Shown piece after piece: positions 4,277 to 30,214 of a DNA stretch of 64,000 nucleotides. The notes under the pieces are model-generated. The model searched no databases. It worked only from the letters and a program-made list of their open reading frames with translations, and had not been told where the DNA came from. This DNA comes from Blastococcus tunisiensis (lineage in GTDB: Bacteria > Actinomycetota > Actinomycetes > Mycobacteriales > Geodermatophilaceae). The position numbers and the translations under genes are program-made. The stretch is taken from assembly GCF_900112815.1 (NCBI RefSeq), contig NZ_FOND01000015.1, forward strand, positions 63,942 to 127,941, in the 5' to 3' direction. Numbering within the stretch: position 1 is the stretch's first letter; every line of letters starts with the position of its first letter.

Positions 4277-4290
4277 CGTGGCAGCATATG

Positions 4291-4312: not shown

Positions 4313-4334
4313 CGATGGGAATGGGCGCGTCTCG

Positions 4335-4760: not shown

Positions 4761-4913
4761 GCTGCGATGGTGCCGTACCGGGGCCGCGCGCGGGGACCGG
4801 GTCCGGCGGCATGCGCGGGTGCGCGGGGCGGGCCGCGGAGGGCGGTCCCGGAGGGCGGTCGCGGAGGTGGCCGCCGAGGGTGCTGTGCGGCACCCGGTGC
4901 CACGACAGGCAGC

Positions 4914-6038: not shown

Positions 6039-6093
6039 CCCTCGGTGCGGTCGATCGCGGTAGAGCACGGTCGGCTGGGGCAGTACGGGACGC

Positions 6094-6759: not shown

Positions 6760-6810
6760 CCGGGGCCGTGGGGGCCGTCCCCGAGGTCGGTGAGGTAGGT
6801 CCGCGCACGC

Positions 6811-7211: not shown

Positions 7212-7238
7212 CGCCTCCGGGAAGCGGGACCGGGGCTG

Positions 7239-8096: not shown

Positions 8097-8224
8097 CGGC
8101 GTCACCGGGGCGGGGCGGGAAGAAGGACCTGCACGCGGCGATCCTCTCCCGTTCCGGCAGCGGACGCGCGGTGTGTCGTCCCCCGGCTGCGGGGTGTCGT
8201 CGGCGCGGCCGCCGGAGTGCCTGG

Positions 8225-9217: not shown

Positions 9218-9418
9218 CGCCCCACTGTCGTCCAGCTCCGCGCACCTGGCCAGGAGAGCACCGCCGAGTTCACGCGTTCGTCACCGCGCAGCCGCCCCCG
9301 GGGTCCGCCGACATCTTGAGGATTCCTTGCGGCAGCGCAGCGGAGTTCTCGTGGCCGGCGGAGCAGGGTGGGTGCTGCACCACGAGGGGGAACAGCCGCC
9401 CGGACCGAGGAGAACGCG

Positions 9419-9616
9419 ATGAACCGCACCACCGACGCAGCCCTGACCCGCCGCGTACTCGGTGCGCGCCTCACCGCCGCCACCGCGGTCCTGGGCGGCG
9501 CTCTCGCCCTGGCCGGCCTGGGCGCGTTCGGCGACCTCGGCGGGTCACCCGCGGCCGGGAACGCCGGCCCCGGCATCACCACCGTGGAGCTCTCGCAGGC
9601 GGCCGGCACCCGATAG
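9419..9616 (+). CDS. Small exported or membrane-anchored protein (65 aa)
   Basis: A 65-aa protein with a basic N-terminus, one hydrophobic helix (LTAATAVLGGALALAGLGAF) and a short Gly/Ala-rich tail. A GAGGAGA ribosome-binding site precedes the ATG. No homologous family is recognised. Stop is TAG. It is divergent from gpgS across a 201-nt gap. Confidence 0.55.
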   Translation: MNRTTDAALTRRVLGARLTAATAVLGGALALAGLGAFGDLGGSPAAGNAGPGITTVELSQAAGTR

Positions 9617-9827
9617 GAACGCCATGCCGACTGGCCGTGCGTCCCGCGGATGTCCAGGTTGCGGAGCCGGGAGTGCGACGCGAGGGCCGCCCGGGCGTAG
9701 GGTGCAGCCAAGCGCGGGCTGATACCCGCGCCGCGCGCATGTCAAACAGCGACGTGTGCAACGCGGGGCCTCCCTGGGGTCCCGCGACCGAGGTCGACCG
9801 CCCCCGGTGAATCAACCGGAGGCCGAC

Positions 9828-10562
9828 GTGCCCGACAGCCGTACTCCCGGAACGACCGCCGTCCAGGCGCTCGATGAGCTCGGGCGGCTCGCCCTGCACG
9901 AGCACTCGATGGAGAGCCTGATGCAGCGCGTCGTCGACCTGACCGGGATCGTGATGCCCGGTCGCAGCGAGGCCTCGATCCTGCTGATGGTCGACGGGCG
10001 CCCCTCGACCACGGCCTACAGCGGGCAGCTGGCGCTGGACTGCGACGAGCAGCAGTTCGGCCAGGGCGAGGGCCCCTGCCTGCACGCCGCGACCACCGGC
10101 GAGCTCACCGAGGTCCCGGACATGCGCACCGAGCAGCGATGGCCCGGTTACATAGTCCGAGCGGCGGAGCGGGGGGCGCTCAGCTCGCTGTCCATCCCGC
10201 TCCCGGTCAGCGAGGGGATCCAGGGGGCGCTGAACGTCTATGCCCGCGAGGTGGACGCCTTCGACGAGGAGAGCCGCACCGCCGGCCGGCAGTTCGCGCC
10301 GTACGCCGGCGTCGCGGTCTCCAACATGTACGCCTACCAGAGCGCGCAGAACCTGGCGGACAACCTGCGGACCGCCCTGGACAGCCGTGCGGTGATCGAC
10401 CAGGCCAAGGGCATCCTCATGGAGCGGCACAAGCTGACCGCCGACCAGGCGTTCCAGGTGCTCGCCCGGGTGTCGATGCAGACCAACACGAAGCTGCGTA
10501 CCGTCGCGGACGAACTCGCGACAACCGGTGTGCTGCCCGGCCTTCCTCCGGGAGCCCGCTGA
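9828..10562 (+). CDS. GAF and ANTAR domain-containing regulator
   Basis: A 244-aa regulator with an N-terminal GAF domain (about residues 12-165, including FGQGEGPCLHA and LSIPLPV) and a C-terminal ANTAR RNA-binding domain (about 172-235: ALDSRAVIDQAKGILMERHK, then AFQVLARVSMQTNTKLRTVA). ANTAR proteins act as transcription antiterminators by binding paired RNA stem-loops; GAF may sense a ligand or redox state. GTG 9828 was chosen because a CGGAGG ribosome-binding site lies just upstream; the frame extends to 9756 without a better signal. A 9-bp hairpin follows at 10616-10645, but it does not have the hexanucleotide loops expected of an ANTAR target. Confidence 0.88.
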   Translation: MPDSRTPGTTAVQALDELGRLALHEHSMESLMQRVVDLTGIVMPGRSEASILLMVDGRPSTTAYSGQLALDCDEQQFGQGEGPCLHAATTGELTEVPDMRTEQRWPGYIVRAAERGALSSLSIPLPVSEGIQGALNVYAREVDAFDEESRTAGRQFAPYAGVAVSNMYAYQSAQNLADNLRTALDSRAVIDQAKGILMERHKLTADQAFQVLARVSMQTNTKLRTVADELATTGVLPGLPPGAR

Positions 10563-10615
10563 TCGCCTGGTCGAGAGCAGGGAGGAGCAGCCTGCCGGCG
10601 GGCCGCGCCTCCCAG

Positions 10616-10645
10616 GCTCGGTGGTCGAGAATCCGGCCACCGAGC
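10616..10645 (+). terminator. Hairpin after the GAF-ANTAR gene
   Basis: A perfect 9-bp inverted repeat, GCTCGGTGG (10616-10624) and CCACCGAGC (10637-10645), with a 12-nt loop, lies 54 nt after the stop. There is no T-run, as is common for high-GC actinobacterial terminators. A regulatory role for the next gene (10789) is also possible. Confidence 0.5.
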
Positions 10646-10788
10646 CGCCCTCGATCACCGGCAGCGCCGTCGCGCCATCCCGGTGGCGGGCCGCAGTCCC
10701 GCGCGCGAAGGTGTGGCCGGGTCGGTAGCCAGGTCCCGACCCGTGGCGCATCCTCTCCGAGCCGCCACGCGCCGACCAGGAGGACACG

Positions 10789-11265
10789 ATGTCGGACCAG
10801 CAGAGCTCGGAAGGGGCTTCCCGCACGTTCGTGCGCGGCCTGAGGAGCACGGTCGGCCGCGAGAGCACGACCTTCGGCTTCTCGATCCTGGCCACCGTGA
10901 CCTTCGGGATGCTGCAGGTGACGCAGGGGTCCCCGGACCTGCCACGCGTGTTCCTCTACGCAGTCGGCGCGGTGCTCTCGTTCACCCTCCTCGAAGGAGT
11001 TCTCTCCCGGGGCTTCCGCAGGCCGATGCCGCAGCACCCGACGCAGACGATGGCCCTGGGCACCAGCCTGAACGTCATCTCCGTCCTGGTCGGGCTGGGT
11101 GCTGCGCTCCTGGTGAGCGAATGGTTCTCGCACGTCGCCGTCTGGTGCCTGGCGCCCTTCGTGGCCGGAGTGGGCTACCTCCTCGCCGAGAGCGTCGAGG
11201 ATGCGCTGGCCGAACGGATCCTCGTCGCCGCCGGGGACGACTCGGCGAAGGAGGTCTCCCCCTAG
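10789..11265 (+). CDS. Hypothetical four-helix membrane protein
   Basis: A 158-aa integral membrane protein with about four predicted transmembrane helices (roughly residues 29-48, 55-72, 88-109, 115-135) and no recognisable catalytic motif. The N-terminus is hydrophilic and probably cytoplasmic. ATG 10789 follows a clear AGGAGGA ribosome-binding site. Stop is TAG. Function unknown. Confidence 0.65.
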   Translation: MSDQQSSEGASRTFVRGLRSTVGRESTTFGFSILATVTFGMLQVTQGSPDLPRVFLYAVGAVLSFTLLEGVLSRGFRRPMPQHPTQTMALGTSLNVISVLVGLGAALLVSEWFSHVAVWCLAPFVAGVGYLLAESVEDALAERILVAAGDDSAKEVSP

Positions 11266-11358
11266 CCGTCGCCCGGTCGGTGGAGCGGCGTCCCCCGGGC
11301 GGGGGGACCGGGGCGCCGGAAGGTGACGGGCAGTGACGCTCGGCCGGATCATCCCGGT

Positions 11359-11457
11359 GTGGCGATGTTCGTGAGACTGGTCTTCTCGCTGGCCGCGGTG
11401 GCGGGAGCGCTGTCGGTGGCCGCCTACGCCCTGCTGCACGTCTCCGGTGCGGCCTGA
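11359..11457 (+). CDS. Possible 32-aa membrane peptide
   Basis: A short open frame starting GTG (or ATG two codons later) encodes a peptide consisting almost entirely of one hydrophobic helix (MFVRLVFSLAAVAGALSVAA). It sits between the genes ending at 11265 and 11465 (the latter convergent). There is no strong ribosome-binding site. It may be a real micro-protein or chance. Confidence 0.3.
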   Translation: MAMFVRLVFSLAAVAGALSVAAYALLHVSGAA

Positions 11458-11464
11458 GGCCGGT

Positions 11465-13627
11465 TCAGCCGGCGGTGGGCACGCGGGCGAGCGCCGTCGG
11501 GCTCTGCTCCCCGACGGCGGCCCCCTCGCCGGTGGGCGACGGGTGGCCCAGGTCGGTGAGCCAGCCGCGCAGCACCCGGTGCAGGTGCTCGGCGCCGACG
11601 ACCTCCCCCGGCGCCGCCCATCCGCGGGGGTGGACCAGCAGCGCGTGCTGCTGCGGCCCGCCCAGCCCGCCGTGCGAGCCGACGTGCGGCTCGAACGGTG
11701 AGGCCTCGTCGGTGTCGGGGTCGTAGCGGCTGTTGATCACGACGTCGGCGCAGTGCGGGAACGCCGAGACGCGGGCGACCAGCGCGGCCGCGTGCTCGCC
11801 GTAGGGGAGCAGCGGGTCGGTGCCGATGACGACGCCGGTGGCCAGCCGGTGCAGCCCGTCCCGGCCGAGGACGACGGGCCCGAACTCGTCGGAGTGCACG
11901 AGCAGGAAGCCGACGCCGTCGTGGTCGACCAGGCCCGGGAGGAGGGCGGGCCAGTGCCGCTCGATCTCCTCCAGCGACACCCGCCCGGGCAGGTCGGGGA
12001 AGGACACCATCGCCTGGTGGCCGGAGACCACGCACACCACGCCCGGCGCGACGCGGGGGACGTCGCCGGTCGTCAGCGGCTCGAAGGCGTGGTCGTGCCG
12101 GACCGCGCCGGCCCGCTCCACGCGGTCGCGCAGCCGGCGCGCGATCGGCCCACCGCTCTCGGCGAGGGCGGTGGCGACCTGCCAGCTCTCCACCGGGCGC
12201 CGGCTGTCCCGGCTGCCGGTGGACCGCTGCCCGCCGACCGGCCCGCCGCTGAGCCGGCCGACCAGGCCCTCCACCGACTCGCCGAACCGGTCGGCGAACG
12301 CCTGGCCCTGGGTCTGCCCGTGGTCGGAGAGGACGACGAGGTGGTACTCGCGCGGCGCCAGCGCCGCCGCCCGGTGCAGCCGGCCCAGCTGCTGGTCGAT
12401 GCTGCGCAGCACGGCCAGGCTGTCGGCCCGCTCGAGGCCCCCGTGGTGGGCGGCCTCGTCGTAGCCGAGGAAGTCGGCGTAGACCACCGGCCGCCCGGCC
12501 AGCATGTCCTCCAGCAGCGCGAAGACGACGACGTCGCGGGAGATGACGGTGACGCCCGGGCGGGCCAGCGGGTAGATGCCGCCGCGGGAGACGCGCGGCC
12601 GGACGTCGTCGCGCCGCTCGCGGGCGGCCGCGGCGAGCTCCCGGCCGACGTCGACCAGGGACACCCCGATGGTGCGCAGCGCATTCACCGGGTTGGCGAA
12701 GTAGGCGTAGTAGCCGGAGCCGACGCGCTCGGCGGTGCGCCGGGTCCGGCGGGCGCGGGCGGGGACGACGTGCGACAGCGAGCTCATCGTGAGGCTGACG
12801 TGGGCGGCGTCGCCGGTGAACAGGTTGCCGCGGCCGGCGCCGTCCGGGGCGAGCAGCCCCCGCCCGTCGGAGTGCCGCCGCTCCACCTCGACGGCGTCGG
12901 CCGGGTGCGAGACGCGGGTGATGTGGTCGCGGTCCTTCTCGTACCAGCGGAAGCCGAGGATGTCGTGGTTGGAGCCGTGCAGGATGCCGCTGACGGCGGC
13001 CCCGGTCTGCGAGCTCCAGTCGGTGTGCCAGGAGGTCATCGCATGGCTGCCGCTGCGCAGCCACGAGGCCAGGTTCGGCATCCAGCCGTCGCGGACGGCC
13101 CGCCGGGCGGTGGAGTGGGCGAGCGCGTCGATCTGCAGGAACAGCACCCCGGGCGGTCGCTCGGCGTCCTCCGGGCCCGGGCGGGCGCGCCGGCGGGCGC
13201 GGCGGAAGAAGATCTCGTCCTCGTCGACGGCCAGCAGGCTGCTGACCAGCCCGGCGACGGCGGCGATCGTCACGGCCACGACGACGGCGACGCGCAGGTT
13301 CGCCACCATCACGCCCGGCACGGCGAAGGACACCGCGAGCACCAGGGCACCGAGGAGCAGGAAGCTGCCCAGCCCGAGGGTGAAGAAGGCGACCGGCAGG
13401 GCCACCCGCATCACCAGCGGCCAGGCCACCGCGGCCAGGACGCCGAGCAGCAGCGCCATCACCGGCGGCTGCCACGCCGACGGCAGCTCGAACCCGTCCA
13501 GCCGGTCGCTGAGCACCACCAGCGCGCCGGTGACCGCCGCCCAGGTGGCCACCAGGCGGGCGAGCGTGCGGCCGGTGCGCAGCAGCCGGCCGTGCGCGGC
13601 CGGCGCGCCGGCGGGGGAGGCGCTCAC
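11465..13627 (-). CDS. Membrane-anchored AlkP-superfamily phosphodiesterase/phosphatase
   Basis: A 720-aa protein. The N-terminal ~150 residues carry four to five transmembrane helices; the rest is an alkaline-phosphatase-superfamily domain of the type I phosphodiesterase class. Visible active-site elements are LQIDAL (metal Asp), DWSSQTGAA (Thr nucleophile), YADFLGYDEAAHH, VLSDHGQTQG and VGSHGGLGG (metal Asp/His ligands). It probably cleaves a phosphodiester or phosphomonoester at the membrane; the substrate is unknown. Its GTG overlaps the dedA stop by 4 nt (GTGA), implying translational coupling. Confidence 0.82.
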   Translation of the reverse strand: MSASPAGAPAAHGRLLRTGRTLARLVATWAAVTGALVVLSDRLDGFELPSAWQPPVMALLLGVLAAVAWPLVMRVALPVAFFTLGLGSFLLLGALVLAVSFAVPGVMVANLRVAVVVAVTIAAVAGLVSSLLAVDEDEIFFRRARRRARPGPEDAERPPGVLFLQIDALAHSTARRAVRDGWMPNLASWLRSGSHAMTSWHTDWSSQTGAAVSGILHGSNHDILGFRWYEKDRDHITRVSHPADAVEVERRHSDGRGLLAPDGAGRGNLFTGDAAHVSLTMSSLSHVVPARARRTRRTAERVGSGYYAYFANPVNALRTIGVSLVDVGRELAAAARERRDDVRPRVSRGGIYPLARPGVTVISRDVVVFALLEDMLAGRPVVYADFLGYDEAAHHGGLERADSLAVLRSIDQQLGRLHRAAALAPREYHLVVLSDHGQTQGQAFADRFGESVEGLVGRLSGGPVGGQRSTGSRDSRRPVESWQVATALAESGGPIARRLRDRVERAGAVRHDHAFEPLTTGDVPRVAPGVVCVVSGHQAMVSFPDLPGRVSLEEIERHWPALLPGLVDHDGVGFLLVHSDEFGPVVLGRDGLHRLATGVVIGTDPLLPYGEHAAALVARVSAFPHCADVVINSRYDPDTDEASPFEPHVGSHGGLGGPQQHALLVHPRGWAAPGEVVGAEHLHRVLRGWLTDLGHPSPTGEGAAVGEQSPTALARVPTAG

Positions 13628-14250
13628 CGGGACTCGCACGGCTCGGGGTCGGCGGCGGCCTGCGCGGCGCGGCGGCGGCTGCTCACCAGGTTGCCGACCG
13701 CGCTGACGGCCAGCACCAGCACGGTGGCGACCAGCATCGCGATCAGCGGGGAGTCGAAGATGCCGCCGCTGACCACGCCGAGCAGCGCGTAGGCGGTGGC
13801 CCACAGGACGCAGGCCAGCAGGGATGCCGGCACCAGCCGGCGCCACGGGTAGGCCAGCGCACCCGCGGCGGCCAGCACCGGGATGCGGCCGGCAGGCAGC
13901 AGCCGGCCGGCGACGACGATCTGCCAGCCGTGCGCCCGGAACTGCTCGCGGACCTCGTCGACGCGCTCGGCGTGCTGGCCGCGGGTCAGCCACCGCACCG
14001 CCGACGGGCCGCCGAACCGGGCGATCGCGAAGGTGATCAGGTCGCCGGTGAGGGCGGCGAGGGCGGCCACGGCGAGCACCAGCGGCAGGCCGAGGGCGTC
14101 GGAGGTCATGGCGAAGGCCGCGGCGGTGCCGACCACCACGCCGGTCGGCACCACGGGGACGACGGAGCCGAGCAGCACCAGCCCGAACAGCACCGGGTAG
14201 CCCACCGCCGTGTCGCCGTCCCAGGCGGAGGTCAGCAGGTCGAGGTTCAT
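13624..14250 (-). CDS. DedA family membrane protein
   Basis: A 208-aa DedA/SNARE-associated family protein, a multi-pass inner-membrane protein of a family linked to lipid carrier (undecaprenyl phosphate) recycling and envelope homeostasis. Visible hallmarks are VVPVVPTGVVVGTAAAF, GDLITFAIARFGG and the [FR]xG-type segment FRAHGWQIVVAGRLLPAGRIP. Its ATG overlaps the upstream MBL gene stop by 4 nt, and its stop overlaps the downstream AlkP gene start, so all three form one coupled operon. Confidence 0.88.
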   Translation of the reverse strand: MNLDLLTSAWDGDTAVGYPVLFGLVLLGSVVPVVPTGVVVGTAAAFAMTSDALGLPLVLAVAALAALTGDLITFAIARFGGPSAVRWLTRGQHAERVDEVREQFRAHGWQIVVAGRLLPAGRIPVLAAAGALAYPWRRLVPASLLACVLWATAYALLGVVSGGIFDSPLIAMLVATVLVLAVSAVGNLVSSRRRAAQAAADPEPCESR

Positions 14251-15059
14251 GCCGCCGCCGAGGGCAGCGAGAGGTCGACCGGGGAGCCGGGCGGGGTGAC
14301 GACGACGCGGGTCGGCAGCCCCCGCGCGGCCACCTCGGTGGCGAAGGCGCAGGGCGGGTCGACCAGCAACCGCCGCATGCGGGCGCGCAACGGGGAGGGC
14401 ACCGACGCCATTCCCGCCACGGTGAGCGTGCCCCAGTGCACGGGGACGGCGATCCGCGGCCGGATCAGCGCGGCGGCGTCGGCCGCTCCGACCGGGTCGA
14501 GGTGGCCCGGCCCCAGGGTGGGGCCCCAGCCCCAGACCGGCAGCAGTGCGACGTCGACGTCGCGGTCCCGCAGCGCCCGCATCCCGTCGTGCAGCCCGGT
14601 GTCGCCGCTGGCGTAGACGCAGGCGCCGCCGCCCTCGAGCAGGAAACCGATCGCCTCGGTGTCGGGGCCGTGGGTGGAGCGGGGGCCCCACCGGTGCCCG
14701 CTGTGGTCGGCGCGGACGGCGGTGATCCGCAGGTCGCCGTCCCGGATCCTCTCGCCGGCCGACAGCTCGTCGACGCGGGGGAAGCCGCGGCCGCGCAGCC
14801 AGGCGCCGGCGCCGCGGGGCACCACGATCCGGGTGCTCGGCCCGACGGTGCGCAGCGACGGGAGGTGCAGGTGGTCGCCGTGCAGGTGGCTGATCAGCAC
14901 GACGTCGACGCCGGCCCAGGTGGCAGGGTCGGGCAGCGGGACGACGCGGCGGAGCAGGCCCACGGTGCGGGCGAGCAGGGGGTCGGTGAGCACGGTGCGC
15001 CCGGCCAGCTCGACGCGGACGGTCGAGTGGCCCAGGAAGTGCAGCTCCGGGCTCGTCAC
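14247..15059 (-). CDS. MBL-fold metal-dependent hydrolase (UlaG/RomA-like)
   Basis: A 270-aa metallo-beta-lactamase-fold hydrolase. The metal-binding motif is SHLHGDHLH, with downstream ligands in DHSGHRWG, ASGDTG and PVHWGT near the C-terminus. The start LHFLGHSTVRVELAGRTVLTDP resembles UlaG/RomA-like and NAPE-PLD-like enzymes, so a phospholipid or lactone substrate is conceivable. GTG 15059 was chosen; the frame extends to 15212 but the added segment is not domain-like. First gene of the coupled MBL-DedA-AlkP operon. Confidence 0.87.
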   Translation of the reverse strand: MTSPELHFLGHSTVRVELAGRTVLTDPLLARTVGLLRRVVPLPDPATWAGVDVVLISHLHGDHLHLPSLRTVGPSTRIVVPRGAGAWLRGRGFPRVDELSAGERIRDGDLRITAVRADHSGHRWGPRSTHGPDTEAIGFLLEGGGACVYASGDTGLHDGMRALRDRDVDVALLPVWGWGPTLGPGHLDPVGAADAAALIRPRIAVPVHWGTLTVAGMASVPSPLRARMRRLLVDPPCAFATEVAARGLPTRVVVTPPGSPVDLSLPSAAA

Positions 15060-15170
15060 GGCGCCAGTATTCGCGGGGGTGCGGACAGTTCCCAAGGCGT
15101 TTGGGCCCCGGTGGGGGCTGCCGGCGGCGGAAATGGGGGGAAACCCTGAGAAACCCTCCGCGACGGGGCC

Positions 15171-15226
15171 GACCATCGGCGGGTGGTCGGCCGACACGCC
15201 GGTGCGGACCACCAGCCGCCGATGAT
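15171..15226 (-). terminator. Imperfect inverted repeat after the GGDEF gene
   Basis: Arms GACCATCGGCGGGTGGTCGG (15171-15190) and a partly complementary copy ending GCCGCCGATGATC (about 15206-15226) could form a stem after the minus-strand gene ending at 15250 and upstream of the MBL gene. Pairing is imperfect and the role is tentative. Confidence 0.35.
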
Positions 15227-15249
15227 CAACCCGGATGTACGTGGGGAGG

Positions 15250-17826
15250 TCAACTCGGCAGGGGGGTCGCGAGCAGGGCCGCCACGTCGGCGACGGTCAG
15301 GCCGTGCGGCTCGCTGCGGCCGTGCAGGAGCTCTGCCTCCGTGGCGACGACGGCGGCGCGGATCTCGGGGGTGGCGACCCCGCCGGCGATCGTGGTGAGC
15401 CCGAACCCGCGGTTGGTGCGCACCATGGCCGCCAGCACCTGCAGGGCGCGCTCGGTGTCGTCGCGGGTGGCGAGCGCGGCGAGGTCGACCCGCACCAGGT
15501 CCAGCGGGATGCGGGCGAGCAGCGCGAAGAGGCTGTGCCCCATCCCGAAGTTGTCCAGGCAGAGGCGCACCCCGCTGCGGCGGGCGGCCTCCAGTTCCGG
15601 GACGAGCGCGGCCGAGCCGGTCAGCAGGGTCTCCTCGGTGAAGGAGACGACCAGCCGCGACGGGTCGAGCCCCGACAGCGTCAGGGCGGTCGCGATCTCG
15701 CCGGCCAGCCCCTCCGCGGCGCCGTAGCCGGCGGGGAGGCTGACGGCCACGCCGAGGTGCGGGTCCGGCAGGGCGGCGATCTCCCGGCACGCCTCCTCCA
15801 GCAGCCAGGTGCGCAGCTCGGCGGCGCGGCCCTGCCGTTCGGCGAAGCCCCACAGGTCGAGCCCGCGGACGGTGCCGTGCTCGGGATGGCTCCAGGTGGG
15901 CGTGGCGTGGACCAGGTCGATCGCGCCGTCCGGCCGGCAGGCGGCGTCCAGGTGGAGGCCGAACAGCCCCTCGGCGACGACGTCGTCGAAGTCCGGCTGG
16001 GCCTCCACGCCGGCGGTGTCGGGGGCGTCGGCGGTCCGGACGCAGCCCTTGCCGGCCTGCTTGGCGGCCCGCAGCGCGGTGTCGGCCTCCCGGAAGGCGG
16101 CCTGACCGCCGGCCGCGCCGAGCACCGCGACGCCGACGCTCGCCCCGACGGCGAACGCCCACTCGCTGGTGCGGTGCGGCAGGCCGAGGGCGTCGACGAC
16201 GCGCTGGGCGACGTCCACGGCCTCGGCCAGGGTGCCGGTGACCAGGACGGCGAACTCGTCGCCGCCGAGGCGGGCGACCAGGTCGTCCTCGCGGACGACG
16301 GTGTGCAGCCGGCGGGCCACCTCGACCAGCAGGTGGTCGCCGGCCTCGTGCCCCGCGACGTCGTTGACGGCCTTGAAGCCGTCCAGGTCCAGGACCAGCA
16401 GGCACCGCGGCTCGACCGAGGGGGCGGTGAGCTCGCGGAACAGCAGCGCGCGGTTGGGCAGCCCGGTGAGGTGGTCGCTGTAGGCCAGCCGCTCGAGCTC
16501 CCGTTCCCGGCGGCGGCGGGTGGTGACGTCGCGCAGGTAGAGCACCCGGCGGCCGCTGCCGGGGCGCTCGGTGGAGGTGGCCTCCAGCTCGCGCGGGGAG
16601 CCGCCCGCCGGCAGGACCCGGAAGTGCAGCGGCGTCCCGGAGCCCGCGGGGATGTCGGCGGTCGCGGACCGGACGGCGTCCCGGTCGGCGGGGTCGACCA
16701 GGTCGAGCAGTGACACCTCGTCGTCGGCGTCGGCGTCGAGGCCCAGCAGGCTGCGGGCGGCGGGGGAGGTGAACAGCAGGCGGAACTTCGCGTCCATGAT
16801 CGCGATGCCGTCGGAGCTGGCCTCGATGAGCCCGCGGAAGTCCTCCTCGCTGCGGACCAGGTCCTGGGTCATCCGGCCGTCCTCGCGGATCCGCAGGACC
16901 AGCCGCAACGCCATGAGGCTGAGGACGACGGCGATGCCGATCTCGGCGGCGGTGGAGTGCGAGTGGTCCTTCCACTCCATGAGGCCGATGGCGACCGGTA
17001 GCGAGAGCAGCGCTCCCACGACCAGCACCACGCCCACGGGGCTGACGACGGGGGCGGCGGCGCGGGCGGTGTGGTCGGCGAAGCGGCGGGGCGCGAAGGA
17101 GGCGGCGACGACGGCGGTCTGCAGGCCCATCGCGACCGCGACGTCGGAGATCGCCGTCCAGAAGGACGACGGGTCGACGATGGCCATGGCCTCGGCCACG
17201 CCGGCGGTGGCCTGCCAGGCCACCACGGCGATCATGACGCTGACCGAGCGGCGCAGCGCCGCCGTCGACACGGTGCACATCGCACCGGCGCCACCGAGCA
17301 TCACGGCGGCGTAGGCGCCGTACATGAGGACGAGGGAGCGCAGGTCGTCCGGGGCGTTCGCCGGGTTGACCAGCGGGGTGCGGAGCACCTCGGTGACCAC
17401 GAGCAGGGCGACGGTGATGACCAGGCCGTCGACGACGAGCGCCGGCCACCGGGTGCGGCCGACCCGGCGGGCCAGCAGCCCGCAGATCACCAGCGGGGAG
17501 GCCGCGCCGCCGAAGAGCAGGACGTCGTCGAAGCCGAAGCCGTCGAGCTCCGGGCCCGGGAAGGCGGCCGCCAGCCACTGGGCGGTCATGAACAGCAGGG
17601 CGGCGTACCCGCCGATCCGCCAGGGCCGGCCGGCGGAGCGGGTCATCGGGCGGGCGATCCGGAAGATCGCCCACGCCGAGCTCGCGGCGACGCCGCCGAG
17701 GACGATCTCGTCCCACTGCATGCCGGTGCCGTCCGGCGCGCTGTGCGGCACGGTGATGAGCAGGCCGAGGAGCGCCAGCGGCACCGTCCACCGGACGGAG
17801 CGGGGGATGCTCCGGCGGGGGATCAC
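15250..17826 (-). CDS. Membrane PAS-GGDEF protein with degenerate EAL domain
   Basis: An 858-aa protein with nine or so N-terminal transmembrane segments (to about residue 300), a PAS domain (near EDFRGLIEASSDGIAIMDAK), a GGDEF domain and a C-terminal EAL-like domain. The GGDEF signature is intact (LARLGGDEFAVLV) and preceded by an RxxD inhibitory site (REDD), so diguanylate cyclase activity with product feedback is likely. The EAL domain lacks key residues: the EALxR motif reads VHATPTW, DDFGTG reads LDNFGMG, and the catalytic Lys region is VRVDLAAL. It is therefore probably a non-catalytic sensor or scaffold. Start GTG overlaps the stop of the upstream EAL gene (GTGA). Confidence 0.88.
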   Translation of the reverse strand: MIPRRSIPRSVRWTVPLALLGLLITVPHSAPDGTGMQWDEIVLGGVAASSAWAIFRIARPMTRSAGRPWRIGGYAALLFMTAQWLAAAFPGPELDGFGFDDVLLFGGAASPLVICGLLARRVGRTRWPALVVDGLVITVALLVVTEVLRTPLVNPANAPDDLRSLVLMYGAYAAVMLGGAGAMCTVSTAALRRSVSVMIAVVAWQATAGVAEAMAIVDPSSFWTAISDVAVAMGLQTAVVAASFAPRRFADHTARAAAPVVSPVGVVLVVGALLSLPVAIGLMEWKDHSHSTAAEIGIAVVLSLMALRLVLRIREDGRMTQDLVRSEEDFRGLIEASSDGIAIMDAKFRLLFTSPAARSLLGLDADADDEVSLLDLVDPADRDAVRSATADIPAGSGTPLHFRVLPAGGSPRELEATSTERPGSGRRVLYLRDVTTRRRRERELERLAYSDHLTGLPNRALLFRELTAPSVEPRCLLVLDLDGFKAVNDVAGHEAGDHLLVEVARRLHTVVREDDLVARLGGDEFAVLVTGTLAEAVDVAQRVVDALGLPHRTSEWAFAVGASVGVAVLGAAGGQAAFREADTALRAAKQAGKGCVRTADAPDTAGVEAQPDFDDVVAEGLFGLHLDAACRPDGAIDLVHATPTWSHPEHGTVRGLDLWGFAERQGRAAELRTWLLEEACREIAALPDPHLGVAVSLPAGYGAAEGLAGEIATALTLSGLDPSRLVVSFTEETLLTGSAALVPELEAARRSGVRLCLDNFGMGHSLFALLARIPLDLVRVDLAALATRDDTERALQVLAAMVRTNRGFGLTTIAGGVATPEIRAAVVATEAELLHGRSEPHGLTVADVAALLATPLPS

Positions 17827-19766
17827 GAGGCCACCGCCGGGAGCACGGGCGCCGGGACCGCGGTCCGGACGTCCCAGTCGCCGGCGGCCAGCCGGCCGGC
17901 CTCGAGCGGCCGGGCGAAGACGTAGCCCTGCAGGTACCGGTGGCCCATGTCGCGGAGCAGGGTGAGGACGGACTCGTCCGTCACGCCCTCGACGATCACC
18001 GGCAGGCCGAGGCTGGCCCCCAGCTGGAGCACCGCGCGGCACATGGCGCGGCGGGCCGGGTCGTGCTCGACGTCGGACAGGAAGTACTGGTCCATCTTCA
18101 GCACGTCGACCGGCATGCCGACGAGGTAGGCCAGCGAGGACCAGCCGGTGCCGAAGTCGTCGACGGCGATGCGGACGCCGAGCCGGCGCAGCACGGTGAG
18201 GTCCTCGAGGACGTGCGAGTCGTCGAGCAGCACCGACTCGGTGATCTCGACGACCAGCCGCGACGCGGGGAGCCCGCTGGCCTCGAGGGCGCCGAGGACG
18301 TCGGGCACCAGCTCTCCGGTGCGGACCTGGCGGGCGGAGACGTTGACCGCCACCGCCAGCTCGGGATCGGCGAGCGCGGCGACGGCGGTGCACGCCTCGC
18401 GCAGCACCCACCGGCCCAGCTCGGTGATCAGCGGGGACTCCTCGGCCAGCGGGACGAACTCGGTGGGCGAGACCTCGCCGTAGGAGGGGTGCCGCCAGCG
18501 CAGCAGCGCCTCCACCGAGACGGTGCGGTGCATGACGACGTCGACGACGGGCTGGAAGACCAGCCGCAGCTCGCCGCGGGCCAGCGCGCCGTCGAGGTCG
18601 GTGCGCAGCGCGGCGCGGCGGTGCTCCTCCACCCGCAGGGCGTCGTCGTAGCGGTGCACCGAGCCGGGGCCGGCGGTGCCGGCGCTGCGCAGGGCCAGCT
18701 CGCCGCGGCGCAGCGCCTCGCCGGGGTCGACGTCGGGGAGTACGGCGGTCACGCCGGCGACGGCGGTGAGCCGCAGCGAGCCGCCGGGGATCGGCAGCGG
18801 CCCGACGGCGGCGACCAGGCGGGCGGCCAGGGTCTCGGCGTCGGCGATGCTGCCGTCGACGAGGACGACGAAGTCGCCGTCCCGGCCGCGGGCCAGCCAG
18901 TCCTCACCCCGCAGGGCGCGGGTGAGCCGGGTGGTCAGGGTGCGCAGGACGGCCGTCTCGGTGTCGGGCGCGAGGACCGCCGAGGCCAGGCCGCTGATCC
19001 GCACGAGGGCGAGCGCGGCCGGCCGGGGATGGACGGCGCCCAGCCGGCGGACCAGCGCGGCCCGGTTGGGCAGGCCGGTGACCGGGTCGGTGAGCGAGAA
19101 GCCGGACAGGTCGGCGTCGGGGCCCGCGGCCGGTGCCTGCGCGGTGACGTCACGGCAGTACAGGACGAGCGCGCCGACGTCGGGGTCGGCGCGCAGGTCG
19201 CGGACGGTGGCCTGGATCAGCCGCCACCGGCCGTCGGCGTGCCGCACCCGCGCGGTGCGGACGGCGACCTCCTCGGGGCGGGGCCGGCCGGTGTCGAGCG
19301 CGCCGGGGAGCGTGCCGCGGTCGTCGGGGTGCACGGCGGCGAGCACCGGCCGGCCGAGCACGGCGGCCGGGTCGAGGCCGAGCAGGTCGGCGATGCCCTG
19401 GGAGGCGAAGGTGATGCGGAACCGGTCGTCGAGGATGACGACCGGGTCGACGCTGCTCTTCACCAGCGTGCGGAAGGAGGACTGGCTGCGCTGCAGCGCG
19501 CCGCTCAGCCGGCGCTGGCGGGACCAGAGGGTGGCCTGCGCCGCGAGAAGGACGGTGAGCCCGGCCACCGCGAGGATGACGCGCGTTCCGCCGGACGCGG
19601 CCAGCAGACCGGCCACGACGGCGGCGACGGCTGCCCCCGCGGCGACGGCGGCCCCCGCGGCGACGGCGGCTCCCGCCGCGGGGACGGCGAGCAGCCCGGT
19701 GCGCCCGCCGGGGGGCGCGACCGGGCGCGCAGCCGCGGGCTGCCCCTGCACGGGGGCGGTGGTCAC
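17823..19766 (-). CDS. PAS-(degenerate GGDEF)-EAL c-di-GMP phosphodiesterase
   Basis: A 647-aa protein: Ala-rich hydrophobic N-terminus (GAAVAAGAAVAAGAAVAA repeats), PAS domain (RSQSSFRTLVKSSVDPVVIL), GGDEF-like domain and EAL domain. The GGDEF site is altered to GRDGDF, so cyclase activity is unlikely. The EAL domain keeps EALLRW, VNVSARQ, EITE, DDFGTGWSSLAYL, KMDQ and VEGV, so c-di-GMP phosphodiesterase activity is predicted. It is the mirror image of the coupled downstream gene (15250-17826), which has an intact GGDEF and dead EAL. GTG 19766 follows a 435-nt gap holding repeats and a 14-bp palindrome. Confidence 0.88.
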   Translation of the reverse strand: MTTAPVQGQPAAARPVAPPGGRTGLLAVPAAGAAVAAGAAVAAGAAVAAVVAGLLAASGGTRVILAVAGLTVLLAAQATLWSRQRRLSGALQRSQSSFRTLVKSSVDPVVILDDRFRITFASQGIADLLGLDPAAVLGRPVLAAVHPDDRGTLPGALDTGRPRPEEVAVRTARVRHADGRWRLIQATVRDLRADPDVGALVLYCRDVTAQAPAAGPDADLSGFSLTDPVTGLPNRAALVRRLGAVHPRPAALALVRISGLASAVLAPDTETAVLRTLTTRLTRALRGEDWLARGRDGDFVVLVDGSIADAETLAARLVAAVGPLPIPGGSLRLTAVAGVTAVLPDVDPGEALRRGELALRSAGTAGPGSVHRYDDALRVEEHRRAALRTDLDGALARGELRLVFQPVVDVVMHRTVSVEALLRWRHPSYGEVSPTEFVPLAEESPLITELGRWVLREACTAVAALADPELAVAVNVSARQVRTGELVPDVLGALEASGLPASRLVVEITESVLLDDSHVLEDLTVLRRLGVRIAVDDFGTGWSSLAYLVGMPVDVLKMDQYFLSDVEHDPARRAMCRAVLQLGASLGLPVIVEGVTDESVLTLLRDMGHRYLQGYVFARPLEAGRLAAGDWDVRTAVPAPVLPAVAS

Positions 19767-19858
19767 AGAGGTCTGATCGGGATGCCGGGGCCGGTGCCGC
19801 AGCCCTGTTCGGGAACTGTCACCCGATCGGGTGTGGGCGTCGGCCGTGGGTGGACCTC

Positions 19859-19942
19859 GCCGGGCCCAGGGTCGAGCCGGGCCCAGGGTCGAGCCGGGCC
19901 CGGGGGCGAGCGGGCCCCGGGGCGAGCTGGGCCCGGGGGTGA
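19859..19942. repeat. 17-bp tandem repeats
   Basis: Five near-identical units (GCCGGGCCCAGGGTCGA, 19859-19875, 19876-19892, 19893-19909, a 16-nt copy at 19910-19925, and 19926-19942) lie in the divergent intergenic region between the EAL gene and the repeat-rich protein gene. The 435-nt gap (19767-20201) also holds the palindrome at 19953-19990; I see no gene in it. Confidence 0.75.
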
Positions 19943-19952
19943 GCCGGTGCAG

Positions 19953-19990
19953 CGGACGTTGAGCCGCGTCATGGCACGGCTCAACGTCCG
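19953..19990. promoter_or_regulatory. Perfect 14-bp inverted repeat in divergent intergenic region
   Basis: Arms CGGACGTTGAGCCG (19953-19966) and CGGCTCAACGTCCG (19977-19990) are exactly complementary, with a 10-nt spacer. The element lies between two divergently transcribed genes (starts at 19766 and 20202), so an operator or leader hairpin is more likely than a terminator. No protein is known to bind it. Confidence 0.6.
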
Positions 19991-20201
19991 GTGGTGGGGC
20001 TCCACCTGCCGGCGTCCTCGTCCGTGCGGGGCCGTCAGTCACCGAATGGGGGCGGACTCGGGGTGTGTGCCATCCGGGGCGCGGGTAGCAGACGCGCCAG
20101 TTCCGCATGACCGCTGCGGGCGCGCCCCGTTCCTGCCAGGAGCCGCGCCCGGGGCGAGCCGGGTGGCGGGGATCCGCCGCAGAGGTCCGGTGGGGGAGAT
20201 C

Positions 20202-24698: not shown

Positions 24699-27600
24699 GT
24701 GAAGACCTGGCTCGACGCGTGGCCGGTGTACCGGCAACTGACCGGTACCGATCCCCTGGGTCGCGGCAAGGCCGCGCGCAGCAAGGCGACCGATGCCACG
24801 GTCTCCCGCACCGCCACGGCCGACAAGGTCGTGAAGAGCGTCTGCCCGTACTGCGCGGTCGGCTGCGCGCAGAACGTCTACGTGAAGGACGAGGCGATCG
24901 TCCAGATCGAGGGCGACCCGGACTCCCCGATCAACCGCGGCCGGCTGTGCCCCAAGGGCAGCGCGAGCAAGCAGCTGGTCACGAGCCCGAGCCGGGTCAC
25001 CACGGTCAAGTACCGCCGTCCGTACGCCACGGACTGGGAGGACCTCGACCTCGACACCGCGATGGAGATGATCGCCGACCGCGTCCTGGAGGCCCGCAAC
25101 AAGGGCTGGCAGGACGAGGACGGCGGCGAGCGGGTCAACCGCACCATGGGGATAGCGAGCCTCGGAGGGGCGACCCTCGACAACGAGGAGAACTACCTCA
25201 TGAAGAAGCTCTACAGCGCCCTGGGCGCGATCCAGATCGAGAACCAGGCCCGGATATAGCACTCCGCGACGGTGCCCGGTCTGGGTGCCTCGTTCGGCCG
25301 TGGTGGCGCAACCAACTTCCTGGAAGACCTGGCGAACTCCGACTGCATCGTCATCGAGGGTTCGAACATGGCCGAGTGCCACCCGGTGGGCTTCCAGTGG
25401 GTGACGGAGGCCAAGGCGCGCGGCGCCAAGGTCATCCACATCGACCCGCGGTTCACCCGCACCAGCGCGATCGCCGACCTGCACGTGCCGCTGCGCATCG
25501 GCACCGACATCGCCTTCCTCGGCGGGCTGATCCGCTACGTGCTCGACAACGAGCTGTACTTCGCGGACTACGTCACCGCCTACACGAACGCCGCCGCCCT
25601 GGTCGGTGAGGAGTTCGTCGACGCCGAGGACCTCGACGGCCTGTTCTCCGGGTTCGACCCGGCGAACAACGTGTACGACGAGACGAGCTGGCAGTACGAG
25701 TTCGAGGAGGCGCCGGAGTCCGGCGCCGACGACCCGGCCGAGGCCGCCGAGCAGGAGCGCAGCGAGCAGGACCCGGCCGTGAAGAAGTCCGACCGCGCCC
25801 AGGCGGCCGGCAGCGGCGGCCCGCCGATCCCGGCCAAGCCCAAGCGGGACGAGACGCTGCAGCACCCGCGGTCGGTGTTCCAGATCCTCAAGCGGCACTT
25901 CGACCGCTACACCCCGGAGATGGTGTCGGAGGTCTGCGGCATCGAGCCGGAGGTCTTCGAGCAGGTCGCTGCGTGGGTGACCAGCAACAGCGGCCGCGAC
26001 CGGACGACGGCGTGGGTGTACTCGGTGGGCTGGACGCAGCACAGCGTCGGCGCGCAGTACATCCGCACCTGCTCGATCCTGCAGACGCTGCTGGGCAACA
26101 TCGGCCGCCCCGGTGGCGGCATCCTCGCCCTGCGCGGGCACGCCAGCATCCAGGGCTCCACCGACGTCCCGACGCTGTTCAACCTGCTGCCCGGCTACCT
26201 GCCGATGCCGCACGCCCACCAGCACCACGACCTCGAGGAGTACGTCGCCGACGCGGCCGGCAAGGCCGGCTTCTGGGGCAACAAGCCCGCCTACATGACC
26301 AGCCTGCTCAAGGCCTGGTGGGGCGAGGCGGCGACGGCGGAGAACGACTACGCCTTCGACTACCTGCCGCGGATCAACGGCGACCACAGCTCCTACCGGA
26401 CGATCACCGACATGATCAAGGGGAAGGTGTCGGGCTACTTCCTGGTCGGCGAGAACCCCACGGTCGGGCACCCGAACAGCCGGATGAACCGCTTCGGGCT
26501 GGCCAACCTCGACTGGCTGGTCGTCCGCGACCTGCAGATGATCGAGTCGGCGACCTTCTGGAAGGAGGGCCCGGAGATCGAGACGGGGGAGATGTCCCCC
26601 GAGACGATCGGCACCGAGGTCTTCTTCGTCCCGGCGGCCACGCACGTGGAGAAGGAAGGCACGTTCACCCAGACCCAGCGGGTGCTGCAGTGGCGGCACA
26701 AGGCCGTCGAGCCGCCGAACGACGCCCGCAGCGACCTGTGGTTCTTCTTCCACCTGGGCCGGATCCTGCGCGACCGGCTGAAGGACTCGACCGATCCCCG
26801 CGACCGGCCGCTGCTCGACCTCACCTGGGACTACCCGGTCGAGGGCGAGACGGCCGACCCCAGCGCCGACGCCGTGCTGCGCGAGATCAACGGCTTCGGC
26901 CCCGACGGCGAGCTGCTGAACAGCTACATGCAGATGAGGGACGACGGCTCGACGTCCGGCGGCTGCTGGATCTACACCGGCGTCTACGCCGACGGGGTCA
27001 ACCAGGCCGCCCGCCGGAAGCCGGCCAAGGAGCAGGGCGCCGTCGCCTCGGAGTGGGGCTGGGCCTGGCCGCTCAACCGCCGGATGCTTTACAACCGCGC
27101 CTCGGCCGACCCCGACGGCAAGCCGTGGAGCGAGCGCAAGAAGTACGTCTGGTGGGACGAGGACGCCGGCGAGTGGACCGGCCTGGACGTCCCCGACTTC
27201 GAGAAGACCAAGCGGCCGGACTACGTGCCCCCGGACGGCGCCAGGGCGCAGGACGCCCTCGCCGGCAACGACCCGTTCGTCATGCAGGGCGACGGTAAGG
27301 CGTGGCTGTTCGCGCCGGCCGGCGTCGTCGACGGGCCGCTGCCCACGCACTACGAGCCGGCCGAGTCCGTCGTCGAGAACGGCCTGTACAAGCAGCAGGC
27401 CAACCCGACGCTGGAGATCATCGAGGGCCCGTGGAACCGGGCCAACCCGAGCCGCAGCGACGTCTTCCCGTTCGCCGTCACCACCTACCGGCTGACCGAG
27501 CACCACACCGCCGGCGGGATGAGCCGCACGCTGCCCTACCTGGCCGAGCTCCAGCCGGAGTTCTTCGTGGAGGTCAGCCCGGAGCTCGCGGAGCTGCGCG

Positions 27601-27989
27601 GCCTGACGCACAACGACTACGCCACGCTGGTCAGCGCGCGGACGGCGGTCGAGGCGAAGGTGCTGGTCACCGAGCGGGTGCGGCCGATCAGGCTGCGCGA
27701 CGGCACCGTCGTCCACCAGATCGGCATGCCGTACCACTGGTCCTACACCGGCATCTCCACCGGCGACGCCGCCAACGACCTGCTGGGCATCGTGATGGAC
27801 CCCAACACCCACATCCAGGAGTCGAAGGTGTCCACCTGCGACATCCGGCCGGGCCGGCGCCCCCGCGGGCCGGAGCTGCTGGAGTTCGTGGAGGCCTACC
27901 GACGGCGGGCCGGGGTGGACTCGGGCCGGGTCGGGGTGAACGGCCGCGATCCCGTGGACGTCGCCGCGGGCGAAGGGTCCGCGCTGTGA
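24699..27989 (+). CDS. fdh: Formate dehydrogenase alpha subunit, selenoprotein read through UAG
   Basis: This is the catalytic molybdopterin subunit oxidising formate to CO2. Read through one in-frame UAG it is 1096 aa. An N-terminal [4Fe-4S] site (C49, C52, C56, C84) leads into the molybdopterin oxidoreductase fold and a C-terminal dinucleotide-binding domain (near GGMSRTLPYLAELQPEFFVE). Codon 187 is UAG (25257-25259) in the context NQARI-U-HSATVPGLG, where homologues have Sec or Cys; His188 follows as in active enzymes. A SECIS-like hairpin starts 11 nt downstream. Both halves are fully conserved in one frame, so this is not a pseudogene. No Tat signal is seen. An acidic linker (about residues 340-390) is unusual. 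GTG 24699 gives the typical KTWLDAWPVYRQLTG start; 24663 is an alternative. Operon with beta and NrfD subunits. Confidence 0.93.
25260..25292 (+). promoter_or_regulatory. SECIS element for UAG-encoded selenocysteine
   Basis: In the mRNA, GGUGCCC (25271-25277) pairs with GGGUGCC (25283-25289) in a 7-bp stem with two G-U wobbles, closing a GGUCU loop (25278-25282). Three further pairs (25267-25269 with 25290-25292) extend it past one unpaired C. The main stem begins exactly 11 nt after the UAG. The GGUCU loop and this spacing are what the E. coli fdhF SECIS needs for SelB binding. Confidence 0.88.
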
Positions 27990-28081: not shown

Positions 28082-28105
28082 ATGAGGGTGAAGGACGCGG
28101 CATGA
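28082..28105 (+). CDS. Possible 7-aa leader peptide
   Basis: ATG 28082 opens a 7-codon frame (MRVKDAA) after a GGGAGGAC ribosome-binding site. Its TGA overlaps the beta-subunit ATG as ATGA. It could couple ribosome entry to beta-subunit translation; otherwise it is chance. Confidence 0.25.
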   Translation: MRVKDAA

Positions 28106-29172
28106 CCTCGATCAGCTCGGCGAGCCCGGGGCTCAGCCAGAACGATCCGAAGAACCGGCTGTTCGGGCCGCTGCCCGACGTGTCGGCCGAGGCCGGCTAC
28201 GTCGAGGAGCACCCCAAGCGGGTCGGCTTCTTCACCGACACCTCGGTCTGCATCGGCTGCAAGGCCTGCGAGGTGGCCTGCAAGGAGTGGAACACCCTCC
28301 CGATGGACGACGCGGACGGCAAGCGCGACGCCATCGGGATGTCGGGGATGTCCTACGACAACACCGGCATGCTCGGCGCCAACTCGTGGCGGCACGTGGC
28401 CTTCATCGAGCAGACCCGCGTGGTCGACCTGCCGATGCCGGCCGTCGGCCTGCCCGGGGCGAAGAACCGGCCGGACGTGCCGCAGCTGGGAGCACCGGAC
28501 ACCGGGGACGTCGACACCACCGCCAAGGCGCAGGCCAGCGTGCTCAACGCCGAGGCGCTCGCCGAGTTCGACCCGCAGACCGGCCAGACGGGGGCGGACA
28601 AGCAGATCCGCTGGCTGATGAGCTCCGACGTCTGCAAGCACTGCACGCACGCCGGCTGCCTCGACGTCTGCCCGACCGGGGCGCTGTTCCGCACCGAGTT
28701 CGGCACCGTCGTCGTCCAGCAGGACATCTGCAACGGCTGCGGCTACTGCGTGCCGTCCTGCCCGTACGGGGTGATCGACCAGCGCAAGGACGACGGCCGG
28801 GTCTTCAAGTGCACGATGTGCTACGACCGGCTCACCGACGGGCTGCAGCCGGCGTGCGCCACGGCGTGCCCGACGCAGTCCATCCAGTTCGGCGACCTCG
28901 ACGAGCTGCAGGCCCGGGCCGACGCCCGGCTGGCCACGCTGCAGGAGCAGGGCGTGGAGACGGCGCGACTGTACGGGCGGGACGAGGACGACGGCGTCGG
29001 GGGAGCGGGCGCGTTCTTCCTGCTGCTCGACGAGCCTGAGGTGTACGGGCTGCCGCCGGACCCGGTCGTCACCACCCGGGACCTGCCGGCCATGTGGAAG
29101 GCGGCCGCCACCGGCGCGGCGATGATGGTGGGGGTCGCGCTGTCGGCGGTCCTCGGCTCGCGGAGGCGCTGA
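28102..29172 (+). CDS. Formate dehydrogenase beta (4Fe-4S ferredoxin) subunit
   Basis: A 356-aa electron-transfer subunit that passes electrons from the molybdenum/selenium subunit to the membrane anchor. Four cysteine clusters are visible in order: CIGCKACEVACKEWN, CKHCTHAGCLDVCPTG, CNGCGYCVPSCPYG and CTMC...CATACPT, enough for four [4Fe-4S] centres. A C-terminal hydrophobic helix (about residues 333-350) may anchor it to the membrane. It lies between the alpha gene (112 nt upstream, with hairpins between) and nrfD (1 nt downstream). Confidence 0.93.
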   Translation: MTSISSASPGLSQNDPKNRLFGPLPDVSAEAGYVEEHPKRVGFFTDTSVCIGCKACEVACKEWNTLPMDDADGKRDAIGMSGMSYDNTGMLGANSWRHVAFIEQTRVVDLPMPAVGLPGAKNRPDVPQLGAPDTGDVDTTAKAQASVLNAEALAEFDPQTGQTGADKQIRWLMSSDVCKHCTHAGCLDVCPTGALFRTEFGTVVVQQDICNGCGYCVPSCPYGVIDQRKDDGRVFKCTMCYDRLTDGLQPACATACPTQSIQFGDLDELQARADARLATLQEQGVETARLYGRDEDDGVGGAGAFFLLLDEPEVYGLPPDPVVTTRDLPAMWKAAATGAAMMVGVALSAVLGSRRR

Positions 29173-29173: not shown

Positions 29174-30214
29174 ATGACGCAGGGAATCACCACGCCCGGC
29201 GCCGGCTGGCGGCGCGCGGACGGGCCGCCGGCGCAGAAGAGCCAGAAGCGGCGCCGCAAGGGCGGACGACGCGGGCGCAACGCCGAGATCGCGATGGTCG
29301 ACGAGGCCGAGTTCACCTCCTACTACGGCCGGCCGATCATCAAGCCGCCGGTGTGGAAGACCCCGGACGTGCCGCTGTACCTGTTCCTCGGTGGAGCCGC
29401 GGGTTCGTCGGCGGTGCTGGGCGCGATGGCGGACCTGTCCGGGCGGCCGGCGCTGACCCGGGCGGCGCGGCTGGTGGCCGGTGGTGGGTCGATCGCCTCG
29501 GTGGGCTTCCTGATCCACGACCTGGGTCGGCCGGAGCGGTTCCTGCACATGCTGCGGGTGTTCAAGCCGACGTCGCCGTTGTCGGTGGGCACCTACATCC
29601 TGTCGCCGTTCAGTGCGGCGGCCGGGGCGACGGCGGCGGTGGAGCTGCTGGGCTGGTTCCCGCGGCTGAAGCGGTTCGGCGGGATCGTGGGCGGGCTGTT
29701 CGGGGGGCCGATGGCCACCTACACGGCGGTGCTGCTGAGCAACACGGCGGTGCCGTCGTGGCACGAGTTCCACACCAAGCTGCCGTTCGTGTTCGCCGGT
29801 TCGGCGATGGCCGCCGGTGGGGGGCTGTGCATGGCCTTCACGCCGGTGGAGGAGGCGGGCCCGGCGCGGAAGATGGCCGTCGCCGGCGCTGCGCTCGAGC
29901 TCGCGGTGGTGCACCAGGTGGAGAACGACGAGAGCATCGTCTCCGAGCCGTACCACGAGGGGCGGGCCGGGAAGCTGATGCGGGCGGCGAGGACGTGCAC
30001 CGCCGCGGGCGCCGGTCTCACCGTCGTGGCCGGGCGTACCCGGCTGGGGGCGGTTGCGTCAGGAACGCTCCTGGCGGCCGGCTCGCTGCTCACCCGCTTC
30101 GGCGTCTTCGACGCCGGCATGGCCAGCGCCCGCGACCCGAAGTACACCGTCGTCCCGCAGCGGGAGCGGCTCGCGGCCCGGGAGAACGGGCACGCGCCGT
30201 CGGTCAGCCGCTGA
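29174..30214 (+). CDS. nrfD: NrfD/PsrC-family membrane anchor subunit
   Basis: A 346-aa polytopic protein of the NrfD/PsrC family, which anchors molybdoenzymes and exchanges electrons with quinone. After a very basic cytoplasmic N-terminus (KSQKRRRKGGRRGR) there are about eight hydrophobic segments; LGRPERFLHMLRVFKPTSPLS and GTYILSPFSA are typical NrfD features. It starts 1 nt after the beta-subunit stop, so the three genes form one operon feeding formate electrons to (mena)quinone. Confidence 0.9.
   Translation: MTQGITTPGAGWRRADGPPAQKSQKRRRKGGRRGRNAEIAMVDEAEFTSYYGRPIIKPPVWKTPDVPLYLFLGGAAGSSAVLGAMADLSGRPALTRAARLVAGGGSIASVGFLIHDLGRPERFLHMLRVFKPTSPLSVGTYILSPFSAAAGATAAVELLGWFPRLKRFGGIVGGLFGGPMATYTAVLLSNTAVPSWHEFHTKLPFVFAGSAMAAGGGLCMAFTPVEEAGPARKMAVAGAALELAVVHQVENDESIVSEPYHEGRAGKLMRAARTCTAAGAGLTVVAGRTRLGAVASGTLLAAGSLLTRFGVFDAGMASARDPKYTVVPQRERLAARENGHAPSVSR

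Follow-up and report, generated by a model that had tools for sequence, protein, structure and literature searches.

The gene for the alpha subunit of a formate dehydrogenase (FDH) in the soil actinobacterium Blastococcus tunisiensis carries an in-frame UAG codon, and the question raised by this locus is whether that codon ends the protein or is read as an amino acid and, in the latter case, as which one. The gene lies in a window of 64,000 nucleotides, the whole stretch of DNA that was analysed, and the genome to which the window belongs comprises 5.04 Mb in 43 contigs. UAG-encoded selenocysteine with a tRNA-Sec bearing a CUA anticodon was reportedly described in Geodermatophilaceae by Mukai et al. 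2016 (Angew. Chem. 55:5337). From a comparison of genes and genomes, the UAG at position 25257 almost certainly encodes selenocysteine, and the window is a further case of an already known code variant, reported for this family in 2016.

The formate dehydrogenase gene and its internal UAG codon

The reading frame comprises 1097 codons, of which the last is the TGA stop, and its translation contains one internal stop, the TAG at codon 187, in the context NQARI-TAG-HSATVPGLG (Table 1). The start is uncertain: the preliminary description of this DNA placed it at the GTG given in the table, whereas another in-frame GTG, at 24663, already opens the frame and is also a possible start. Profile NF041513 (formate_DH_Act, cut-off 1400) is matched by the part before TAG with 335.7 bits at model positions 2-185 and by the part after it with 1564.5 bits at positions 187-1067. 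The match over the cut-off, together with Fe4S4 and molybdopterin domains, identifies the product as an FDH alpha subunit. The TAG aligns with the residue printed as X in the solved FDH chains 1h0h_A and 8cm4_A (QARI-X-HS), which we take to be selenocysteine because of how the 8cm4 molecule is named and what is known of the family. The single in-frame UAG, its active-site position and the uninterrupted conserved protein on either side, all claimed in the preliminary description, are thus confirmed by the translation, the alignment and the adjoining profile matches.

Two further genes follow on the same strand. The first matches TIGR01582 with an E value of 3.4e-53, below the curated cut-off, and PF13247 above its cut-off; the second exceeds the cut-offs of both its Pfam profiles, gave no match in the NCBIfam profile search, and likely encodes the membrane anchor of the FDH. 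A tRNA-Arg called by ARAGORN inside the FDH gene (27236-27329) is probably false, because Rfam reports no RNA over its gathering score anywhere in the window.

Table 1. Features of the formate dehydrogenase locus (positions in the window)
Feature	Position	Strand	Basis or remark
Formate dehydrogenase alpha subunit gene	24699..27989	+	GTG start, terminal TGA, one internal TAG
Ile codon ATA directly 5' of the Sec codon; conserved rare codon	25254..25256	+	Named-locus comparison
UAG codon, codon 187, read as selenocysteine (proposed)	25257..25259	+	Aligns with X residue of solved FDHs
SECIS-like stem-loop GGUGCCC / loop GGUCU / GGGUGCC	25271..25289	+	Comparison across homologues
Formate dehydrogenase beta (4Fe-4S) subunit gene	28102..29172	+	TIGR01582 FDH-beta, PF13247
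NrfD-type membrane subunit gene	29174..30214	+	PF03916, PF14589

Selenocysteine machinery and other UAG genes in the genome

Decoding of UAG as selenocysteine calls attention to the rest of the genome, where the preliminary description had proposed a search for a tRNA-Sec with a CUA anticodon and for selA, selB and selD. All of them were found, side by side. The sole convincing tRNA-Sec of the genome, at C26:210373, has the anticodon CTA, scores 69.1 bits in Rfam (gathering 47) and ends in an encoded GCCA. It shares one 5-kb stretch with selD, selA and selB, and selA begins about 85-87 nt after it (87 counted from the last model position). The three genes each exceed the curated cut-off of their profile (TIGR00474, TIGR00475 and TIGR00476 for selA, selB and selD; L008), and a profile search places a winged helix at the C-terminus of SelB. 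Another sequence, L002, also exceeds the Rfam cut-off for tRNA-Sec (49.7 bits) but was rejected as a tRNA-Ser, to which ARAGORN assigns the anticodon TGA and which has a better Rfam tRNA score.

ARAGORN labels the CUA-bearing tRNA 'tRNA-Pyl', presumably owing to its CTA anticodon, and this label is what speaks for UAG being read as pyrrolysine by a tRNA-Pyl. The Rfam tRNA-Sec score lies well above the gathering score, the acceptor and T arms together form 13 pairs (7+6) in the RNAfold structure, the gene adjoins selA, selB and selD, and relatives have selenocysteine or cysteine at the FDH site. The tRNA model and the gene neighbours thus indicate a tRNA-Sec and, judged from these, a pyrrolysine reading is very improbable.

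The FDH is accompanied by other genes with an internal UAG. A second FDH of the same genome likewise carries TAG at this position, with ATA before it, and shares 65% identity in the part that follows the codon. Two genes of the UGSC family (L168 and L169, at C28:478056 and C19:162891) each contain one in-frame TAG, directly before GSC; possible hairpins lie 3' of the TAG in both, and that of L168 is no stronger than those of shuffled sequences.

Codon and anticodon in Geodermatophilaceae and beyond

The best-matching named relatives of the FDH come from Blastococcus, with identities of up to 92%, and from further Geodermatophilaceae, lineage membership being judged by gene likeness only. When the 112 genomes of the family were searched with a pattern that left the Sec codon free, the FDH motif was present in 98, and all the matches listed read ATA-TAG. 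An Rfam tRNA-Sec match is present in 108 of the 112; a tRNA pattern with the anticodon left free likewise matches 108, with CTA in 101, TCA in seven and no other or intermediate anticodon among them. A CTA tRNA-Sec accompanies the TAG-containing FDH in 96 of the 98 genomes; in the other two (G097 and G098, drafts that are 72% and 80% complete) no tRNA-Sec was found. The seven TCA genomes (G066, G068, G069, G070, G072, G073 and G074) span three genera, and every one of them belongs to the 14 in which the FDH motif is absent. G072 to G074, together with G071 of the same genus, have a more distant FDH-like gene with an in-frame TGA at the site (CNRT-TGA-HAPSVVGL; L205-L208) and GGTCT downstream; in G071, which is 74% complete, no tRNA-Sec was found.

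Genes of the UGSC family gave 95 matches in 54 genomes (E up to 0.001), 48 of which have a match over the cut-off. One TAG is present in 72 matches, 23 have no stop and none has TGA; among 31 loci fetched, TAG was read directly before GSC in 23 and was not present in the other eight.

An observation that counts against the proposed decoding comes from G079, a genome with the CUA anticodon, in which both copies of the FDH (L200 and L212) lack the segment bearing the Sec codon and the SECIS element. Their left breakpoints differ, the right breakpoint is shared and the frame is broken; double loss or an assembly artefact may account for this gap.

The survey of the order covered 397 genomes, 75 from Geodermatophilaceae and 322 from outside the family. 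Among the matches listed for the latter, most read ATT-TGA, a few have Cys, some have unrelated codons and none has TAG. Thirty of the 322 were chosen because a TGA-containing FDH match was listed for them. All 30 have an Rfam tRNA-Sec match, and in 29 ARAGORN reports a tRNA-Sec(TCA); in the thirtieth (G246, 79% complete) the Rfam match was rejected, as ARAGORN identifies it as a tRNA-Ser.

The search of named genomes yielded 215 stretches coding for a relative, of which the best 80 were used. The codon is readable in 78: 52 have TAG, 13 TGA and 13 Cys. All but one of the 52 TAG records are named Blastococcus, Geodermatophilus, Modestobacter, Trujillonella, Goekera or 'Geodermatophilaceae bacterium'. 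The exception, 'UNVERIFIED_ORG: Bacillus sp. AZ43' (L077), carries a Blastococcus-like TAG FDH and is probably mislabelled.

These surveys bear on whether the gene might be a pseudogene, or its TAG an assembly error, such that only a fragment of 186 residues is made. A handful of other genes in the window seemingly use TAG as an ordinary stop, which favours such a view: under a rough GC3 filter, and with the two FDH halves counted apart, 26 of 31 likely reading frames end in TGA and five in TAG, including the one at 25257. Set against this, the frame remains open for the 909 codons after the TAG, whose product exceeds the cut-off of the family profile, and the TAG is shared by both paralogues of the genome and by every family genome with the motif, so that this explanation is very improbable. 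The recurrence in 98 of 98 motif-bearing family genomes and 52 of 78 readable named loci also means that, judged by comparison, the TAG is not a sequencing error. With the tRNA-Sec(CTA) lying beside selD, selA and selB, the match of codon and anticodon across relatives supports the proposal of the preliminary description that this genome would decode UAG as selenocysteine through tRNA-Sec(CUA).

A SECIS-like hairpin downstream of the UAG codon

The hairpin starts 11 nt after the TAG and consists of the strand GGTGCCC (25271-25277), the loop GGTCT (25278-25282) and the strand GGGTGCC (25283-25289), in agreement with the 7-bp stem, loop and spacing described earlier; two of the seven pairs in this copy are G-U. 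Folded alone it reaches -16.9 kcal/mol (z -0.46), and 64 of 200 shuffles do at least as well, an unexceptional energy for such GC-rich sequence. Single-sequence folding was rejected as proof of a SECIS element: the eight stretches folded have z values from -0.01 to -1.99, none clearly apart, and the lowest belongs to L140, a Cys homologue that lacks the hairpin.

Support for the hairpin comes from comparison rather than from folding energy. Of 67 copies, 37 were chosen by eye for variety and aligned (35 distinct). Pairing is retained in 96.7% of the cells, and sliding the partner by one to three columns reduces it to 31-62%. Both sides have changed in 22 cells, against a shuffled mean of 8.3, and none of 500 shuffles reaches 22. 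Both-sided change is confined to one of the seven stem pairs, which occurs as C-G, G-U, G-C and U-A; four pairs are invariant, hence silent on covariation, and the outermost is broken in seven of the 35 copies. The GGTCT loop is found in all 52 TAG loci, in 12 of the 13 TGA loci and in none of the 13 Cys loci; the remaining TGA locus (L149) has AGTCT. This comparison is convincing, and the covariation of one pair together with the absence of the loop from Cys homologues points to a SECIS hairpin just 3' of the UAG.

An ordinary amber suppressor tRNA, inserting a standard amino acid without selenium, would also allow read-through, and the tRNA-Sec(CUA) match attests only the presence of that tRNA. 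Such a suppressor is nevertheless highly unlikely, given that the tRNA-Sec with CUA is present in the genome and that the hairpin loop is kept in homologues with UGA-encoded selenocysteine and missing from those with Cys.

The codon before selenocysteine and the anticodon-loop closing pair

Two features vary together with the Sec codon. The Ile codon directly before it is ATA in all 52 named TAG FDH loci; in the 13 named TGA loci it is ATT in 11 and ATA in two, and ATC never precedes the Sec codon in either group. The remaining Ile codons of the TAG FDH genes are ATC in 1943 cases, ATA in 38 and ATT in four. Cys homologues have Val at this position. The two TGA loci with ATA come from a Quadrisphaera MAG and Ornithinimicrobium (L127, L149). 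A general rule against C ahead of the Sec codon was discarded, as the 23 readable UGSC loci have GAC (nine) or GAT (14) before TAG; the distant TGA FDHs have ACT before TGA. The ATA rule therefore holds for this FDH only, with the UGSC genes and the distant FDHs outside it. Two matches to the ATATAG motif in viral contigs were dismissed as chance, as they show no FDH frame. No report of such a rule before UAG-encoded selenocysteine came up in searches of the open-licence literature.

The second feature is the pair closing the anticodon loop of tRNA-Sec. It is U-A in all TCA tRNAs read (26 from the outgroup, where four of 30 loci were unreadable, and eight from the family) and C-G in all 22 CTA tRNAs read, which are from the family. 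The same linkage with the anticodon is seen in the 108 pattern-matched family genomes, and no mention of it was met in the literature consulted. It probably reflects a single event on a single branch, so that causation and coincidence are not separable.

A genome with two tRNA-Sec genes

Genome G058 has the usual tRNA-Sec(CTA) and a second tRNA-Sec with the anticodon TCA (81.8 bits), and its FDH and UGSC genes use TAG. The second tRNA lies on contig C17 (L166, 1-6000), where bases 1001-6000 have a GC content of 61.9% and bases 6001-20000 one of 72.2%, within the 20 kb covered of the 69-kb contig. It adjoins an alkylhydroperoxidase-like CxxU gene (RCFY-TGA-MESH; TIGR01926 above cut-off), which has a hairpin about 10 nt after the TGA that is no stronger than those of shuffled sequences. 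For the right flank (7201-10500), further contigs of G058 give matches of up to 98%, and the best hits elsewhere in the genus have 79-90% identity; these matches, from the right flank only and from repeated DNA, argue against contamination. A plasmid search with the peroxidase-like protein returned 333 records, all below 60% identity. It is possible that G058 is a cell with two selenocysteine codons. The occurrence of several tRNA-Sec genes in one genome is already known from PMC5330540, where the excerpts consulted give no case with two different anticodons; a bacterium with both tRNA-Sec(UCA) and tRNA-Sec(CUA) was not found reported in searches of the open-licence literature.

Proposed decoding and the origin of the codon switch

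In the proposed mechanism, SerRS would charge the tRNA-Sec with anticodon CUA, and SelA, with selenophosphate from SelD, would convert the serine on this tRNA into selenocysteine. SelB, bound to the SECIS hairpin, would then bring the Sec-tRNA to the ribosome halted at UAG, and the outcome would be a full-length FDH with selenocysteine at its metal site. To judge from the reading frames of the window, UAG apparently still serves as a stop in other genes, so release factor 1 should compete at the FDH codon.

The presence of TCA genomes within the family, and of TCA and TGA outside it, suggests that UGA is the older state and UAG the derived one, a polarity drawn from this distribution. A single change of the Sec codon from UGA to UAG probably took place in the family, accompanied by the change of anticodon in the tRNA. 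As TGA is the commonest stop in the window, the switch may have taken selenocysteine off the commonest stop.

A wider scenario, offered tentatively and with somewhat less than even confidence, is that the switch was a package of three changes, in which the anticodon went from UCA to CUA, the closing pair from U-A to C-G and the Ile codon preceding selenocysteine from AUU to AUA, after which G058 gained a tRNA-Sec(UCA) and decodes both UAG and UGA as selenocysteine. If this is true, the preceding codon would act as an additional cis signal matched to the Sec codon, the tRNA-Sec(UCA) of G058 would have arrived on a low-GC island beside the UGA-coded CxxU peroxidase-like gene, and one set of SelA and SelB would serve both UAG and UGA in one natural cell.

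The family offers a clean natural case in which the Sec codon changes identity and the machinery remains recognisably unchanged. Genera with the UCA anticodon persist within the family, so that the order of the steps may be reconstructable, and the fixed ATA and the two-tRNA genome make limits on the choice of Sec codon testable. The variant also matters for annotation, where TAG taken only as a stop splits these FDH genes in two.

Comparison with known systems

In canonical bacterial selenocysteine incorporation, represented by fdhF of E. coli, UGA is decoded with SelABCD and a SECIS hairpin that lies just after the codon. The present system has the same enzymes, the same placement of the hairpin and the same enzyme family; it differs in that the stop codon is UAG instead of UGA and the anticodon CUA instead of UCA.

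Natural use of UAG for selenocysteine is documented, as far as the consulted excerpts extend, for some bacteria (PMC8124441) and for Blastococcus (PMC5133445). The section available from PMC5330540 records tRNA-Sec(CUA) in three genomes of Geodermatophilaceae, credits their FDH and UGSC selenoproteins to Mukai et al. 2016, and adds an AhpC gene with UAG for B. saxobsidens DD2. The mention of UAG-programmed selenocysteine for Geodermatophilus and Blastococcus in the preliminary description was right in substance, as far as these excerpts go. The present case shares with those described there the family, the anticodon and the FDH and UGSC gene families. Relative to that excerpt, the analysis here covers 112 genomes, including seven with a TCA anticodon in three genera, and adds the ATA before UAG, the linked change of the closing pair and one genome with two tRNAs. 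In E. coli engineered for the purpose, changing the anticodon to CUA is enough, given SelB and a SECIS, for UAG-encoded selenocysteine according to PMC3834832; the CUA anticodon is common to both systems, whereas the one described here is natural and widespread in its lineage.
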